Origin: Chlorobaculum sp.
GTDB lineage: Bacteria; Bacteroidota; Chlorobiia; Chlorobiales; Chlorobiaceae
Direction: 5' to 3'
NCBI GenBank assembly: GCA_013334855.1
Contig: JAAXWU010000001.1
Span: 1 to 64,000 of the forward strand
Length of the DNA: 64,000 bases
Under the pieces are notes generated by a model. The model saw only the letters and a program-made list of their open reading frames with translations, had not been told where the DNA came from and searched no databases. The position numbers and the translations under genes were made by a program. How positions within the stretch are numbered: the first letter of the stretch is position 1; each line of letters begins with the position of its first letter. Shown here piece by piece: positions 1 through 6,635 of this stretch.

Positions 1-316
1 AAGCCCCAGTTTCGACGCTCCATGTGTATCGCCCGACAAATCTGAAGCATGACACCTTTTGTTCCTCTTACGCTAAAAACTCTTTTCAGTTGCCCCGGAC
101 TTCAGTCCGGGGTTAACAGACAAAAAATCAGGGCTTTAGCCCAATCTCTTTTTAAGGTAACAATTGTGGCTCGTCGTTACCCTTTCACTGAAATTCAGGA
201 TTCTTCCGTCCAACCGCAAAAAATGGCACTCCCCTCTGCGGAATTTTACCTTGATGACGGAGATTGTTTTCTTTCAGAAACGTCCGCTTTCTTTCAATCG
301 CCGAAACGATACGATC
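1..316. other. Intergenic leader of tkt with one REP-like repeat
   Basis: No convincing gene lies here. Open frames that cross it run through a palindromic repeat (see 91-150) and give protein unlike any family. The rest is moderately AT-rich and should hold the promoter of the transketolase gene, but I see no clear -35/-10 pair. Confidence 0.6.
91..150 (+). repeat. REP-like palindrome pair, copy 1
   Basis: A perfect 20-nt palindrome of the form CCCCGGACT-TC-AGTCCGGGG (93-112) is followed about 18 nt later by a second small palindrome GGGCTTTAGCCC (131-142) and the tail CAAT. The same two-palindrome unit recurs at 4309-4370, 5031-5095 and, inverted, at 4870-4930, around a Y1 transposase gene. 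The organisation resembles REP/BIME elements that are mobilised by RAYT transposases. Confidence 0.8.
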
Positions 317-2344
317 ATGACCCTCACCCGCTCTATCGATGAAGAGGCCGTCGCCACCATCAGGCTTCTGGCGGTCGATATGGTTGAAAAAGCCCGCTCC
401 GGCCATCCGGGACTGCCGCTTGGCGCGGCTCCGATGGCCTACGCGCTGTTCACGAAAATCATGCGTTTCAACCCCGCCAATCCCGAGTGGCCGAACCGCG
501 ACCGCTTCGTGCTCTCGGCGGGCCACGGCTCGGCGCTGCTCTACGCCATGCTGCACCTCTGCGGCTACGGCCTCGGCATGGAGGAGCTGAAGCAGTTCCG
601 CCAGTTCGGCAGCCGCACGCCGGGCCACCCCGAGTACGGCCACGCGCCCGGCGTCGAGACCACCACCGGCCCGCTCGGCCAGGGCCTCGCCACCGCCGTT
701 GGCATGGCCGCCGCCGAGAGGTTCCTCGCGGCGAAGCTCAACACCCCGGAGCGCACGCTCATCGACCACTTCACCTACGTGATATGCAGCGACGGCGACC
801 TCATGGAGGGCGTCAGCTCCGAAGCCTCGTCGCTCGCCGGGCACCTGAAGCTTGGACGGCTGATCTGTCTCTACGACAGCAACCACATCTCCATCGAAGG
901 CTCGACCGACCTCGCCTTCACGGAAGATGTCGCCCGCCGCTACGAGGCGTACGGGTGGCACGTCATCTCGCACATCGACGGCAACGACCTCGCCGCCATC
1001 GAAGAGGCCGTGCGCGACGCGCAGGAGGTGACGGACAATCCGTCGCTCATCATCGTCAAGACGACCATCGGCTACGGCAGCCCGCACAAACAGGGCACGG
1101 CATCAGCGCATGGCGAACCGCTCGGCCCGGAGGAGGTGAAGCTGGTCAAGCGGGCGTTCGGGTTTGACGAGGATGCGTCGTTCGTCGTGCCGGATCGGGT
1201 GTACGCGCACTTCCGCGAGGTGGCCGGACGCGGCGCAAAGCTCGAAGCGGAGTGGCAGGCGCAGTGGCAGACGTTCGAGCGGGACGAACCCGCGCTTGCG
1301 GCGGCAATCACCGAGCTGCTCGCGGGCCGTTTCCCCGAAGCGTGGCTGCCCGATCTGCCGGAGTTTCCGGTGGGCGAAAAGCTCGCCACGCGGCAGGCAT
1401 CGAAAAGCGTGCTCACGAGCATCGCCAAAAAGGTGCCTCTCCTTGCCGGAGGTTCGGCTGACCTTGCCCCATCGACCGGAACGCTCTACGCCGGAAGCCG
1501 CGACTTCGAGGCGGAAAGCTATGACGGCTCGACCTTCCACTTCGGCGTCCGGGAGCACGCGATGGGCGCAATCGTCAACGGTATGGCGCTGTCGAAACTC
1601 GTCATCCCCTACGGCGCGACTTTCCTCATCTTCGCCGACTACATGAAACCGGCTCTGCGCATCGCCGCCCTGATGCAGTCGCCCTCGATCTTCATCTTCA
1701 CCCACGACAGCATCGGCCTCGGCGAGGACGGCCCGACCCACCAGCCCATCGAGCAGCTCGCCATGCTCCGCGCCATGCCGGGCTTCGACGTGTACCGTCC
1801 GGCGGACGCGAACGAAGCGGCGGCGGCGTGGCTGATCGCGCTGAAACGCCGCAAACCGGCGGCGCTCGTGCTGACGCGACAGGGTTTGCCGGTGCTCGAT
1901 GACGCTGACGGACGCCTCCGCAGCGGCGTGGCAAAAGGCGGCTATGTGCTGGCGGATTGGGCGGATAGCGACGATGCGGACGACCGGCGGATCATCATCG
2001 TGGCGACCGGCTCCGAGGTGCATCCCGCGCTCGAAGCGAAAGCGCTGATCGAAGCGCAGGGATACGCCACGCGGGTGGTCTCGATGCCGTCGCGGGAGCT
2101 GTTCGCCGAGCAACCGGCGGAGTATCGCGCCGCCGTGCTGCCTCCAGTGGTTCGGGCGCGAGTCGTCGTCGAAGCCGCCGCAACCTTCGGCTGGCACGAC
2201 ATTGCGGGCGACGGCGGCGCGGTCATCGGCCTCGACCGCTTCGGCATGTCAGCCCCCGGCTCGCAGGCGCTGGAGCACTTCGGCTTCACCGCCGCCAACA
2301 TCGCCGCAAAAGCGCTGGAGCTGCTCGACAACTTAACATCATGA
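317..2344 (+). CDS. tkt: Transketolase
   Basis: Thiamine-diphosphate enzyme that moves two-carbon ketol units between sugar phosphates in the non-oxidative pentose phosphate pathway. The 675-residue protein has the usual family length and order: an N-terminal TPP domain with GHPGLPLGAAPMAYALF near residue 35 and the GDGDLMEGVSSEA diphosphate-binding stretch near residue 155, then the pyrimidine domain with the second signature HDSIGLGEDGPTHQP, then the C-terminal domain. I start at 317 (MTLTRSIDEEAVATIRLLA); the frame is open further upstream but that extension reads through the REP repeat region. The stop overlaps the start of the phosphogluconolactonase gene by four bases (ATGA), so the two are probably co-translated. 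Confidence 0.95.
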   Translation: MTLTRSIDEEAVATIRLLAVDMVEKARSGHPGLPLGAAPMAYALFTKIMRFNPANPEWPNRDRFVLSAGHGSALLYAMLHLCGYGLGMEELKQFRQFGSRTPGHPEYGHAPGVETTTGPLGQGLATAVGMAAAERFLAAKLNTPERTLIDHFTYVICSDGDLMEGVSSEASSLAGHLKLGRLICLYDSNHISIEGSTDLAFTEDVARRYEAYGWHVISHIDGNDLAAIEEAVRDAQEVTDNPSLIIVKTTIGYGSPHKQGTASAHGEPLGPEEVKLVKRAFGFDEDASFVVPDRVYAHFREVAGRGAKLEAEWQAQWQTFERDEPALAAAITELLAGRFPEAWLPDLPEFPVGEKLATRQASKSVLTSIAKKVPLLAGGSADLAPSTGTLYAGSRDFEAESYDGSTFHFGVREHAMGAIVNGMALSKLVIPYGATFLIFADYMKPALRIAALMQSPSIFIFTHDSIGLGEDGPTHQPIEQLAMLRAMPGFDVYRPADANEAAAAWLIALKRRKPAALVLTRQGLPVLDDADGRLRSGVAKGGYVLADWADSDDADDRRIIIVATGSEVHPALEAKALIEAQGYATRVVSMPSRELFAEQPAEYRAAVLPPVVRARVVVEAAATFGWHDIAGDGGAVIGLDRFGMSAPGSQALEHFGFTAANIAAKALELLDNLTS

Positions 2345-3171
2345 ACGACAACAAGATGACACACTGGATCTGTGCGCCGCACGACGCGCTTCTCGAACGT
2401 GCCGCCGCCTTCATCACCGACGCGGCGTACCGGGCGGTGGCCGAGCGGGGCCGTTTCACGCTGGTGCTGTCGGGCGGCAACACCCCGCGAGCGCTGCACC
2501 AGAAGCTCGTCGAAGGGATCAGCGAAGAACGCTACCTCGAACTCGGCTACACCCTGCCCGGCGAGGTGCGCCGAAACGCCAGCAACCCCGAAGCAATCGA
2601 GCTGCCCTGGGCGCACACTCTGCTCTTTCTGGGCGACGAGCGCTACCTGCCGCCGAGCCACCCCGACAGCAACTACGGCATGGCCCGCGAAACGCTATTA
2701 CGCCACGTCTGCGTAAAACCGGAGAACATCCACATGATGCCAACCGAATCGGACGATCCGGCAGAGGATGCCGAACAGTACGAAACACTGCTCCGGGGCC
2801 TGTTCCGCAAACGCGGCGCAGATGCGGACGACGCCCCACCCTCGTTCGACCTCATCCTCCTCGGCCTCGGCGACGACGGCCACACCGCCTCCCTCTTCCC
2901 CGGCGACGAAAAGTCGCTCGACGAAAAAGAGCGCTGGGTGATCGCCGTCAACGCCCCCAACGGCAAACCACCGGGAATGAGGCTGACGTTGACGCTGCCC
3001 GTCATCAACGAAGCCGCCAACGTACTCTTCCTCATCCCGCCGACACGCTACGAGCTTGCCCGAAGCATCACCAACGGCGAGAAGCCGGAGCTACCGGCAG
3101 GGATGGTGAAGCCGAGGAGTGGGAATGTTTGGTGGTTTGTGGAGGGGATGTATTTTAAGAACAGCCTTTGA
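2341..3171 (+). CDS. pgl: 6-phosphogluconolactonase
   Basis: Hydrolyses 6-phosphogluconolactone to 6-phosphogluconate, the second step of the oxidative pentose phosphate pathway. The 276-residue protein belongs to the SOL/DevB (NagB-like) family: LVLSGGNTPRALHQ near residue 40, the FLGDERYLPPSHPDSNYGMA block near residue 100, and LGLGDDGHTASLFPG near residue 180 are the conserved ligand-binding motifs. It overlaps tkt by four bases and lies opposite zwf-gnd, so all three oxidative-branch enzymes are in this 8-kb block. An ATG five codons in (2356) is an alternative start. The 3' end overlaps the convergent unknown gene at 3155 by 17 bases. Confidence 0.93.
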   Translation: MNDNKMTHWICAPHDALLERAAAFITDAAYRAVAERGRFTLVLSGGNTPRALHQKLVEGISEERYLELGYTLPGEVRRNASNPEAIELPWAHTLLFLGDERYLPPSHPDSNYGMARETLLRHVCVKPENIHMMPTESDDPAEDAEQYETLLRGLFRKRGADADDAPPSFDLILLGLGDDGHTASLFPGDEKSLDEKERWVIAVNAPNGKPPGMRLTLTLPVINEAANVLFLIPPTRYELARSITNGEKPELPAGMVKPRSGNVWWFVEGMYFKNSL

Positions 3172-3610
3172 TAAAAAAGATAAACGCAATAATTCCAACA
3201 CCAATCCATAACGGATTAAAATCACCATCGCTACCACCACTACTAACAGAAGTAGAACCAGAAGAACTCCTGTTTGGATATCTTAGGCGATTTGCTATTT
3301 GATTAACCTCTTTTTTTGCCTGCTGATCCTTATCGTCACCCTCACTAAAATCCCGTGTAAGAAAGTATTGACATTTACGTTCGTCAAAAACCTTCATATG
3401 TTTACTATTTATATCCTTATCGCTATACCCCATCTCTTTATACAAAAGGCATGTATCATTACCTGAGGCATCGGCGCCAAAATTAAACATACAATCCCTA
3501 CATTCAACAACAGAATTGGGGTATTCATAACCTTCAGGATCTATATATTTCGATCCAACAAATGCGCTACGGCCCTTATATCTATTATATATATCAACAC
3601 AGCTTCCCAT
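3155..3610 (-). CDS. Unknown protein with Cys-rich N-terminal half and C-terminal membrane anchor
   Basis: I do not recognise this 151-residue protein. Its first 85 residues contain five cysteines in spaced pairs (CVDIYN, CRDCMF, CLLYKE, KCQYF), then comes a charged linker, a Ser/Gly-rich stretch, and one C-terminal hydrophobic segment (PLWIGVGIIAFIFFIKG), suggesting a tail-anchored membrane protein. Codon use is AT-rich, unlike tkt, pgl and zwf on either side, which suggests horizontal acquisition together with the small gene at 3666. Its end overlaps the convergent pgl gene by 17 bases. Confidence 0.6.
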   Translation of the reverse strand: MGSCVDIYNRYKGRSAFVGSKYIDPEGYEYPNSVVECRDCMFNFGADASGNDTCLLYKEMGYSDKDINSKHMKVFDERKCQYFLTRDFSEGDDKDQQAKKEVNQIANRLRYPNRSSSGSTSVSSGGSDGDFNPLWIGVGIIAFIFFIKGCS

Positions 3611-3665: not shown

Positions 3666-3902
3666 TCAGAATGCTTTCCCTACACGCGTAAAACTCGAAG
3701 GACTATCTAGTTTTGAAACATAACCGCTAAACGCTTTAAAGCCATTCACATAAAGCGTGTCCTCAGAACCCTCAAAAATAACTGTTGCTAAACCGTTTTC
3801 GTCTGTTTTATGCACAGTATCCGTATTGTAAGTACTTACCGTTTGCATAGAAACGCCGTTCCCCGCATCATCAACAACATAGACTTTAACTACTTTTGAC
3901 AT
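3666..3902 (-). CDS. Small beta-sandwich-like protein of unknown function
   Basis: A 78-residue protein starting MSKVVKVYVVDDAGNGVSMQ. The pattern VYVVDDAGNGV...TDENGLATVIFEGSEDTLYVNG resembles the short beta-sandwich repeats found in carboxypeptidase-regulatory-like or Ig-like domains, which carry a turn 'D.NG.a'. I start at 3902 because a good Shine-Dalgarno (AAGGAGC) lies seven bases upstream; the longer open frame to 4070 has no support. No signal peptide. It is AT-rich and lies just upstream of the unknown membrane-anchored gene on the same strand, 55 bases away, so the two may form an operon. Function is not known. Confidence 0.6.
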   Translation of the reverse strand: MSKVVKVYVVDDAGNGVSMQTVSTYNTDTVHKTDENGLATVIFEGSEDTLYVNGFKAFSGYVSKLDSPSSFTRVGKAF

Positions 3903-4130
3903 TGCCTTGCTCCTTTTTTCTTTTAAAAAAAACACAAAAAAATTAACAAAAAAAAACGAATTGACAAAGCAATTCATACGAAAAAACCGCGAATCTTTCA
4001 ATAAAGAGCCCGGCCGCAAGCGGCGGGGAATCTGACCCATCGAGATTGAAATGATGTCTTTGAGGCGCACAGAAAAATCTCATACTGCCGACTTCATCAA
4101 AGAAATAAATCATCGCCTTCCCCACCATCC

Positions 4131-4243
4131 ATCACCCGTAAATCCGCGATGATTCCGGCCCCCAGCTATGGACGGGATACAGCTCCGGGGCTTGGCCGTT
4201 GATTGAATCCTTCAGGCTGTCGATGATGGCCCAGGAGTGTTCG
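4131..4243 (-). pseudogene. Second, detached copy of the zwf 3' end
   Basis: About 107 bases (4137-4243) match the last 36 codons of zwf plus the stop codon at 5205-5313, in the same orientation, with five differences that I can count. Four of the five are at third codon positions and silent; the fifth changes Asp to Asn. There is no upstream coding part, so it is a fragment. The pattern of silent changes means that this copy diverged while still under selection as protein, i.e. it is probably the tail of another zwf allele rather than a recent tandem duplication. Confidence 0.85.
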
Positions 4244-4262
4244 ACTTCGATTCCCATATTCA

Positions 4263-4280
4263 GGCGGGATTCATCCCGCC
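4263..4280. repeat. Short palindrome of the REP cluster
   Basis: GGCGGGATTCATCCCGCC: six-base arms around a six-base centre, directly upstream of REP-like copy 2. Part of the palindrome-rich cluster that surrounds the transposase gene. Confidence 0.6.
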
Positions 4281-4308
4281 GGACATTTCGGCTTTGGTAT
4301 TCATGTTG

Positions 4309-4370
4309 CCCCGGACTTCAGTCCGGGGAAGAAAAAACCTCCCTCCTCATGGGCTTCAGCCCAATTTCTT
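4309..4370 (+). repeat. REP-like palindrome pair, copy 2
   Basis: The 20-nt palindrome CCCCGGACTTCAGTCCGGGG at 4309-4328 is identical to copy 1, followed by GGGCTTCAGCCC at 4351-4362 and the tail CAATTTCTTA. It lies 47 bases before the transposase start. Confidence 0.8.
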
Positions 4371-4416
4371 ATATTTCAGCTTGACCGGAAGACTTCAACC
4401 CCAATCTCTTCCCAAA

Positions 4417-4848
4417 ATGCCATATATCAAAATCTGGATTCATTGCGTCTGGGCAACGAAAAACCGCTCGGCAATTATGGATCATGACGTTCGCACAAAC
4501 CTCTTCAGCCACATCGCGAAATATGCCGGTAATCAGGGCATTTTTATCGATCGGATTAACGGAAGCAATGACCATGTCCATCTCCTGATCTCTCTTGGTT
4601 CCAATCAGACTATTGCCAGCGTCATTCAGACCATCAAGGGAGAATCATCGTGCTGGATGAACAAAAGTGGTATGATCCCTTTCCGGTTCGCCTGGCAGAA
4701 TGATTATTTCGCCGTTTCCGTCAGTGAATCACAACTCGACACGGTTCGTGCTTATATCGATGCTCAGGTTGAACATCACAGAGTGAAAACCTTTGCCGAC
4801 GAGTATCAGGAGTTCATTGGGAAGTTTGGATTTGCTGACAGGCTCTGA
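4417..4848 (+). CDS. Y1 (IS200/RAYT-type) tyrosine transposase
   Basis: HUH single-strand transposase of the Y1 family (Transposase_17). The 143-residue protein, starting MPYIKIWIHCVWATKNR, carries the HUH motif DHVHLLISLG near residue 55 and the YIDAQVEHH segment near residue 110, whose tyrosine is the expected nucleophile. IWIHCVWATKNR is typical of this family's first strand. I start at 4417 because the frame upstream runs through REP repeats. No TnpB gene accompanies it, and it is closely flanked by REP-like palindromes, so I favour a RAYT domesticated to the REP repeats over a free IS200 copy. Both motifs are intact, so it may be active. Confidence 0.85.
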   Translation: MPYIKIWIHCVWATKNRSAIMDHDVRTNLFSHIAKYAGNQGIFIDRINGSNDHVHLLISLGSNQTIASVIQTIKGESSCWMNKSGMIPFRFAWQNDYFAVSVSESQLDTVRAYIDAQVEHHRVKTFADEYQEFIGKFGFADRL

Positions 4849-4869
4849 TGATTCCGGGGTATGAAGAAA

Positions 4870-4930
4870 TTGGGCTGAAGCCCGGTATTTTTTTTGTCAT
4901 GTAGTCCCCGGCTTGAAAGCCGGGGCAACT
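4870..4930 (-). repeat. REP-like palindrome pair, copy 3 (inverted)
   Basis: On the + strand the order is GGGCTGAAGCCC (4872-4883), then CCCCGGCTTGAAAGCCGGGG (4906-4925); read on the - strand this is the same order as the other copies. It sits 22 bases after the transposase stop. Confidence 0.75.
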
Positions 4931-5030
4931 AAACAGCAATGTAAGAGCTTAATGTCCGTCGGGTTGAAACCCTCCTGAGTATAAGAAGCTGGGGCAATAA
5001 TTGCTCCAGCCATTAAACCTCTCAAACAAT

Positions 5031-5095
5031 TGCCCCGGACTTTAGTCCGTGGTTTATGGATAAAACAAAATAAATCAGGGCTTTAGCCCAATTTC
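5031..5095 (+). repeat. REP-like palindrome pair, copy 4
   Basis: CCCCGGACTTTAGTCCGTGG (5033-5052, one imperfect base in the arm) followed by GGGCTTTAGCCC (5078-5089). Same orientation as copies 1 and 2. Confidence 0.75.
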
Positions 5096-5198
5096 TTACA
5101 ACGGCGGCGATTGCGATTTTTTATTGCCTGGACAATTGAAATGACAATAAAAGTTTGAGTGTCCATGCCAGAATACTCAAAATCCACCCCCACCAATC

Positions 5199-6635
5199 TC
5201 ACCCGTAAATCCGCGATGATTCCGGCCCCCAGCTATGCACCGGATACAGCTCCGGGGCTTGGCCGTCAATTGAATCTTTCAGGCTGTCGATGATGGCCCA
5301 GGAGTGTTCGACGCTGTCTTTGCGGATGAAGTTCATCTGGTTGCCTTCGATGGCGTCGAGCAGCAGGCGGTGGTAGGGCGTGAGGCCCTCGCCCTGGAAG
5401 GTTTCGCGGTAGTCGAACTTCATGAAGACCGGATCGGTGATCATCTGCTCGCCGGGTCGTTTCGCGCCGAAGCGGATGGCGACCGTCTCGTCGGGCTGGA
5501 TGCCGAGCACCACCTGGTTCGGCGTGCTGCACGCTGCGCCGCCGTACGGCCCGTAGTAGTTCTGCGGCGGGCAGCGGAAGGTGATCACGATTTCGGTCAC
5601 GCTTTTGGCGAGATTCTTGCCCGCCTTCATGTAGAACGGCACGCCCGACCAGCGCCAGTTATCGATGTGGAACTTCACGGCGGCGAAGGTCTCGACCTTC
5701 GATTCCGGCGCGACCCCTTTTTCGGCGACGTACCCCTCGTACTGGCCGAGCACCACCGAATCGAGCACCGAGTCGAGGTTGAAGCGGCGCACCGAGCGCA
5801 GGATTTTGGACTTCTCGTCGCGGATCGAGTCGGCTTCGAGATCGACCGGCGGCTCCATCGCGATGGCCGCGAGCAACTGCAAGCCGTGGTTCTGGATGAT
5901 GTCGCGCAGCAACCCGGCCTCCTCGTAATAGCCGCCGCGCCCCCGAATGCCGAAATCCTCGGCGATGGTAATCATGACCTGCGCGATGTACTGCCGGTTC
6001 CAGAGCGGCTCGAAGATGCCGTTGGAGAAGCGGAACACCATGATGTTCTGCACCGGCTCCTTGCCGAGATAATGGTCGATGCGGTACACCTGCCGCTCCT
6101 CGAACACCTCGTCGATGACGCGGTTCAGCTCGTGGGCGCTTTCGAGGTCGTGGCCGTAGGGCTTTTCGGCGACGAGCTTCCGCCACCCGGCGCAGGAACG
6201 CTCGCGTCCGCCCAGTCCGGCAGCACCGAGATTCCTCACAACGGTTGGCGCGAGACTTGGCGGTATCGACAGATAGAACATCAGGTTGCGGCAGGTGCGC
6301 CCGTTTCCCTCGTCGCTCATGATCTCGTCGCGCAGCCTCGCGTAGCCCGCCGGATCGTCGAGATCGACGCGGGCATAAAAGAGGCGGCGGCAGAAGGCGT
6401 CGAGCCTCGCCGCATCGGTGGCGGCTTCGGGCGAGTGCTCCATCAGCCGCTCGCGAACGCTCTGGCGGAACTCGTCGTGGCTCATCTCCTGCCGCCCGAC
6501 GCCGATCAAGCGGAAGCTCTCCGGCATGTGGCCCCAGCGGGCGAGCTGGAAGATCGACGGGAAGAGCTTGCGCGACGCCAAGTCGCTGCTTGCGCCGAAG
6601 ATGACGATGGTGAAGTTGTCGAGAGTGCCGCTCAT
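5199..6635 (-). CDS. zwf: Glucose-6-phosphate 1-dehydrogenase
   Basis: Oxidises glucose 6-phosphate to 6-phosphogluconolactone with NAD(P)+, the entry step of the oxidative pentose phosphate pathway. The 478-residue protein has the N-terminal dinucleotide fold with the [14 protein letters not shown] motif (residues 14-27) and the substrate/active-site signature [13 protein letters not shown] near residue 185, followed by the C-terminal domain with the [22 protein letters not shown] block. Its start overlaps the end of gnd by four bases (ATGA), so gnd-zwf form a translationally coupled pair on the - strand. The last 36 codons are duplicated, with synonymous divergence, about 1.07 kb downstream (4131-4243). 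Confidence 0.95.

Follow-up and report, generated by a model that had tools for sequence, protein, structure and literature searches.

Inverted two-hairpin repeat units around a TnpA-Y1 subclass 1.2 gene point to a REPIN-like system in Chlorobaculum

In the Chlorobaculum sp. draft genome analyzed here, a low-copy TnpA-Y1 transposase of subclass 1.2 and the dispersed hairpin units on which it most likely acts appear to form a RAYT/REPIN-like system that is built on a different enzyme, a reading to which we assign a probability of about 0.7. The system looks like a REPtron carried by another branch of the Y1 family. With less assurance, we also lean towards the broader view that the subclass 1.2 transposases are a separate branch, which gained a REP/REPIN type of life independently of the class 2 RAYTs across Chlorobiota, Bacteroidota, Planctomycetota, Verrucomicrobiota and other groups, and which follows rules of its own, with two unlike hairpins per unit and an outer YWG foot.

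Among domesticated bacterial transposases, the RAYTs are well known; subclass 1.2 lies near the true insertion sequences and has been reported as free of repeats. If subclass 1.2 does carry its own REPIN-like repeats, this type of life would have arisen more than once and could be compared between lineages. A sequence rule (mirrored two-hairpin units with a YWG foot) would then make it possible to link orphan palindromic repeats of several phyla with a candidate transposase, which could be tested in vitro. Within the open-access literature, ISfinder aside, both the tie of the repeats to subclass 1.2 and their spread across phyla appear to be new; a report of repetitive extragenic palindromic sequences in Chlorobium was not found in that literature.

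Results

The tnpA locus and its hairpin units

The window, that is, the whole stretch of DNA analyzed, comprises the first 64 kb of a 67.6-kb contig from a draft genome of 2.55 Mb (233 contigs, 88% complete); the earlier presumption that the host is a green sulfur bacterium is supported. The tnpA cluster sits between pgl (2341-3171) and zwf (5199-6635, minus strand), and tnpA is the only Y1 gene that a Pfam search found in this draft genome. The features are as follows.

93..112, plus strand: hairpin A of the unit upstream of tkt (sequence read directly)
131..142, plus strand: hairpin B of the unit upstream of tkt (sequence read directly)
4132..4245, minus strand: second copy of the zwf 3' end, across the tnpA cluster from the gene itself (96% to 5199-5312)
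4263..4280, plus strand: hairpin C GGCGGGATTCATCCCGCC, outermost in the upstream C-A-B unit (sequence, single-strand folding)
4309..4328, plus strand: hairpin A CCCCGGACTTCAGTCCGGGG, outer foot GTTG (sequence read directly)
4351..4362, plus strand: hairpin B GGGCTTCAGCCC, followed by AATTTCTT (sequence read directly)
4417..4848, plus strand: tnpA, Y1/HUH transposase of 143 aa, assigned by sequence to subclass 1.2 (DHVH, WQ, YIDAQVEHH)
4872..4883, minus strand: hairpin B of the downstream inverted unit (sequence read directly)
4906..4925, minus strand: hairpin A variant CCCCGGCTTTCAAGCCGGGG of the downstream inverted unit (sequence read directly)
4961..4972, minus strand: hairpin C GGGTTTCAACCC of the downstream inverted unit (sequence)
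4998..5138, plus strand: degenerate 141-bp copy of the type I element, with A and B inside weak terminal inverted repeats (putative ends, placed by analogy with the consensus)
5033..5052, plus strand: hairpin A with one mismatch (sequence read directly)
5078..5089, plus strand: hairpin B (sequence read directly)

Direct reading of the sequence confirmed the four two-palindrome units of the original prediction, at 93-142, 4309-4362, 4872-4925 (inverted) and 5033-5089, together with the position of the transposase gene between the inverted units at 4309 and 4872. The inverted unit is present as described except for its A arm, which is the compensated variant CCCCGGCTTTCAAGCCGGGG of CCCCGGACTTCAGTCCGGGG. 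The two-hairpin units that flank tnpA in inverted orientation are each accompanied by a third hairpin, C, further out; single-strand folding of the upstream unit yields hairpins A, B and C.

The duplicated part of zwf is its final 114 bp (96%; window positions 4132-4245 versus 5199-5312). A duplicate of the same kind, 162-164 bp in length, is present in the related genomes G020 and G015, and none was seen in G011. Two small minus-strand open reading frames of unassigned function (3155-3610 and 3666-4070) lie between pgl and the zwf fragment. Because G001, G002, G003 and G009 hold other, unrelated sequence downstream of zwf, the pgl-zwf gap looks like an insertion hotspot.

Classification of the transposase

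TnpA matches Pfam PF01797 (95 bits) and contains the HUH motif and the catalytic tyrosine of the Y1 superfamily; H53, H55, Y113 and Q117 are among the columns that are invariant in 40 homologues. The proposal that the protein is a RAYT did not stand. TnpA carries the motif YIDAQVEHH in place of the class 2 YxxNP, and its score against the NCBIfam RAYT model REP_Tyr_transpos is 23.4 bits, under the cut-off of 80. For the phylogenetic comparison with the RAYT groups, a tree was built from subclass 1.2 proteins together with ISDra2, IS608, the Escherichia coli RAYT and, from the genus itself, class 2 proteins and one IS200-type protein. A branch with support 90 separated the subclass 1.2 proteins from the remainder, and class 2 split off with a support of 98, placing TnpA apart from class 2, with long branches that leave the exact joins unsure. 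Membership of the class 2 RAYTs was thus ruled out by motif, curated cut-off and tree.

Against the NCBIfam IS200/IS605 model NF033573, TnpA scored 72.5 bits, above the cut-off of 55. An AlphaFold2 model (pLDDT 89), which includes a C-terminal helix at residues 126-137, gave a predicted fold closest to ISDra2 (E 4e-9) and IS608 TnpA, the RAYT structure 4er8 being next. The pattern Y---Q--HH is the signature of TnpA-Y1 subclass 1.2, a group listed as having no REPs and, as a rule, no terminal hairpins (Quentin et al. 2018, PMC6006769). TnpA shows this pattern, the short core with a C-terminal extension and the low copy number of the subclass. Judged by its sequence, the enzyme is a TnpA-Y1 of subclass 1.2, not a RAYT (class 2 TnpA_REP). 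What survives of the suggested RAYT-like system is the RAYT/REPIN-like behaviour described below, not the identity of the protein.

Hairpin units across the draft genome

Hairpin A (CCCCGGACTTYAGTCCGGGG and stem variants) gave 61 matches with at most three mismatches in the 2.55-Mb draft genome, compared with 0 in the control, and hairpin B (GGGCTTNAGCCC) was found at 40 places per strand, about 80 in all, compared with 1 in the control; this abundance is not due to chance. A scan for A-B pairs in the stretches around the repeats returned 79 raw matches, some of them overlapping or chance matches, and 68 well-formed units were kept. Far from being few and without association to the transposase elsewhere, the palindromes are numerous and are tied to the transposase.

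The order and polarity of A and B are constant, and the linker usually measures 25 nt. Since 63 of the 68 units have TTG ahead of A and 62 have AAT behind B, the basic unit reads 5'-ATTG-(hairpin A, TTYA loop)-about 25 nt-(hairpin B, TTYA loop)-CAAT-3'. The outer foot of A is ATTG in 55/68 units and GTTG in 8/68, which differs from the GT[AG]G foot of class 2 REPs. As the class 2 sequence and this foot are two of the features that define the RAYT family, tnpA falls outside that family in its present definition.

Evidence for a conserved stem came from the complete genome G020, where 71 of the 74 copies of hairpin A have complementary bases at the two free stem pairs (in shuffles, 32.6 on average and 46 at most); these pairs covary. 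The units are mostly intergenic: in a rough open-frame test, 19% lay within a frame of at least 200 codons, as against 79% of random points. A search of the hairpin units against Rfam yielded no match to a known RNA family above threshold.

Unit insertion and the type I element

A subset of the units belongs to what we call the type I element, which has a modal length of 141 bp and terminal repeats TTATTRCTCCGGC ... GCCGGAGYAATAA (26 copies). None of these 26 copies shows a target duplication, except for a TA that lies inside the terminal repeat. A 138-bp type I copy is missing at the matching site in G020, and longer unit-bearing stretches are missing, with less clean ends, at other compared sites in G020 and G011. 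Because such empty sites exist in a relative, the units insert. The ends of type I lie 35-47 nt outside the hairpins, where it is hard to see how the Y1 enzyme would define them; this counts against the enzyme model.

Distribution within the genus

Every one of the 21 genomes of the genus has hairpin A (4-103 copies); among 52 genomes of the sister genus there is a single copy. A subclass 1.2 match is present in 11 of the 21, the draft genome under study included. Nine of these 11 carriers have one tnpA match (the Pfam search being counted for the rest), G019 alone has a second match, which is only 36% identical to the query, and the genus maximum is two tnpA copies per genome. Several near-identical copies per genome were found in none of the carrier genomes of the genus. 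The other ten genomes, which are without a subclass 1.2 protein match, have kept A hairpins.

The gene adjoins zwf, at the same pgl-zwf site, in G000, G020, G015 and G011; in G014 it is next to pgl at a contig start and zwf starts another contig. In G007, G008, G013, G017, G018 and G019, tnpA and zwf are on separate contigs, and pgl and zwf lie close together without tnpA between them. The pgl-zwf site of G016 lacks tnpA and holds one C-A-B unit that runs into the right-hand portion of the downstream unit, an arrangement expected from a deletion between direct units and such a scar as this event would leave.

The dN/dS ratio of tnpA is 0.12-0.35, and the gene is under purifying selection. Between G000 and G011, the dS of tnpA is 0.19, compared with 0.64 for the neighbouring zwf. 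Because of this lower value, tnpA has probably spread laterally between species or undergone gene conversion, and may not have descended strictly vertically.

These data bear on the alternative that tnpA belongs to an ordinary IS200-type insertion sequence, whose terminal hairpins spawned non-autonomous copies (MITEs) and whose gene is now single by chance. We consider this unlikely. It would fit the score above the IS200/IS605 cut-off, the predicted fold, the resemblance of the type I elements to MITEs without target duplication, and the greater likeness of tnpA than of zwf between species. It is opposed, however, by the limit of two tnpA copies per genome in the genus, by the shared pgl-zwf site in the four genomes named above, by a ratio of units to gene of about 60 to 1, by the same inverted units at both ends in place of distinct left and right ends, and by the position of the Y---Q--HH lineage apart from the IS200 references in the tree.

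Gene presence and A copy number are weakly correlated within the genus, with G009 as a clear exception. This genome (L270) has 103 A copies, weak class 2 matches only and no subclass 1.2 match; no tnpA is seen in the 1.5 kb downstream of its zwf, so that either the gene was lost or the assembly has a gap there. A match in specificity between hairpin variant and TnpA inside the genus would rest on few copies (4 and 6 versus 0-1). In G020, whose tnpA is at 2.25 Mb, 18 of the 74 A hairpins lie at most 55 kb from this gene, where 2.9 are expected and the maximum in 5000 simulations was 11; local movement may be the cause. A bias of the units to one replication strand was considered and rejected as inconsistent, applying to 10/12 single units in G011 and to about 22/38 in G020.

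Homologous loci beyond the genus

From a scan of GTDB species genomes, the 80 best loci were taken, 75 of which were testable; they span Bacteroidota, Ignavibacteria, Planctomycetota, Verrucomicrobiota and others. Hairpins flank the gene on both sides in 56% of the 75 loci (2% of control window pairs), and a mirror test, which demands an exact match of at least 13 bp between one flank of the gene and the opposite flank read as its reverse complement, was positive in 48% (controls 0.3% in-locus and 1.7% between loci; Fisher 3e-30), percentages that describe this set of loci because the loci are not independent species samples. YWG stands at the outer foot of the strongest hairpin in 34/89 cases, at its inner foot in 8/89 and at other hairpins in 14/152. 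The sequence of the flanking hairpins varies among lineages and the arrangement recurs, so that the paired palindrome, predicted to be distinctive, reappears at homologous genes in other phyla.

An independent case of a hairpin-flanked tnpA is G094 (TnpA 54% identical), with inverted B hairpins 79-90 bp before the gene start and 44-55 bp after its end, and with 37 B copies genome-wide. The hairpin unit of the Mucilaginibacter lineage is CCGTCCCATTYATGGGACGG; the flanking hairpin has 6-17 copies in four Mucilaginibacter genomes and 8-23 in six genomes of the CCNNGGGCAACGCCCNNGG type, the copies being largely local to the gene in some of them. In L162 (Verrucomicrobia bacterium ADurb.Bin118), all ten CCNNGGGCAACGCCCNNGG hairpins lie on one contig within 1.8 kb beside the gene, forming an alternating array.

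That the hairpins are unrelated to the transposase, being terminator-like or RNA elements that spread otherwise, with tnpA in a repeat-rich gap by chance, is improbable. This idea draws on the two main facts against the TnpA model, namely that A is present in genomes without a detectable subclass 1.2 gene, most of all in G009, where many units (103 A) stand without an intact gene, and that the type I ends lie outside the hairpins. It is countered by the mirrored flanks, seen across phyla at 48% of the homologous genes versus 0.3% of controls, by an arrangement that stays constant while the sequence differs among lineages, and by the lack of an Rfam match. We give very little credence to the idea that the palindromes are spread by a genuine class 2 RAYT at another locus, with the subclass 1.2 gene as a passenger: class 2 Y1 proteins (YIHLNP, YIHENP) do occur in several genomes of the genus, but neither the draft genome under study nor the complete G011 has a further Y1 gene, and they hold about 70 and 24 A hairpins, respectively.

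Given the mirrored flanks, the conserved foot and the polymorphic insertions, movement of the units by TnpA is the simplest account, and we infer that the units are cleaved or mobilised by this enzyme. In such a mechanism, TnpA would bind the folded single strand of a unit and cut near the hairpin foot; the units would be moved as single-stranded DNA, and the tnpA gene itself would rarely be copied. Homologous recombination between direct units could delete tnpA and leave repeats behind, as the scar in G016 suggests.

Comparison with known systems

RAYT/REP/REPIN systems (REPtrons) were taken from Nunvar 2010 (PMC2817692), Bertels 2011 (PMC3116915), Quentin 2018 (PMC6006769; classes 2.2, 2.4 and 2.5) and Corneloup 2021 (PMC8266576). 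Like them, the present system has a low-copy HUH-Y1 gene under purifying selection that is flanked by inverted hairpin repeats, one gene copy to many dispersed repeats, and repeats that are mostly intergenic, often form inverted pairs, have a short conserved foot at the hairpin base and may outlive the gene. It differs in the protein, which is assigned to class 1.2 (Y---Q--HH) and not class 2 (YxxNP), in the foot, which is ATTG here and YWG more widely in place of the GT[AG]G of RAYT-linked REPs, in the use of the unlike palindromes A and B as unit arms, and in the existence of a 141-bp version with terminal inverted repeats. With REPINs the units share an inverted hairpin pair with feet outward that is dispersed as a unit (ATTG ... 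CAAT in most of the 68 units); a REPIN, however, repeats one REP in both arms, whereas A and B are unlike in sequence and in stem length, and ATTG replaces GTAG.

TnpA agrees with published subclass 1.2 in its Y---Q--HH pattern, its length of 143 aa (median 148), its low copy number and its occurrence largely in Bacteroidetes and relatives, whereas the subclass was published without REPs and mirrored hairpin flanks are found here and at about half of the 75 homologues. Close prior art is provided by the TIRtrons/TIRYTs of Di Nocera et al. (2013, PMC3733652), in which Y1 genes lie between inverted, sometimes double-palindromic repeats that form moderately abundant genomic families. The TIRYT proteins are described as having the motifs by which RAYTs differ from IS200 transposases, and GGGGWSAS is a motif of their repeats; in the text of that paper, Chlorobi are mentioned only for CGTC repeats, which flank no transposase.

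The IS200/IS605 elements IS608 and ISDra2 resemble the present system in fold, catalytic residues, hairpin ends and the lack of target duplication. Unlike these elements, tnpA has few copies, sits at a shared pgl-zwf site in four species or more and has identical inverted ends, and the non-autonomous units far outnumber the genes.

A separate observation concerns G012, which gave 29 Y1 matches. Many of these lie at contig ends, and the one read as a protein (L235) has YVKEQ. On these grounds G012 likely holds a multicopy IS200-type element.
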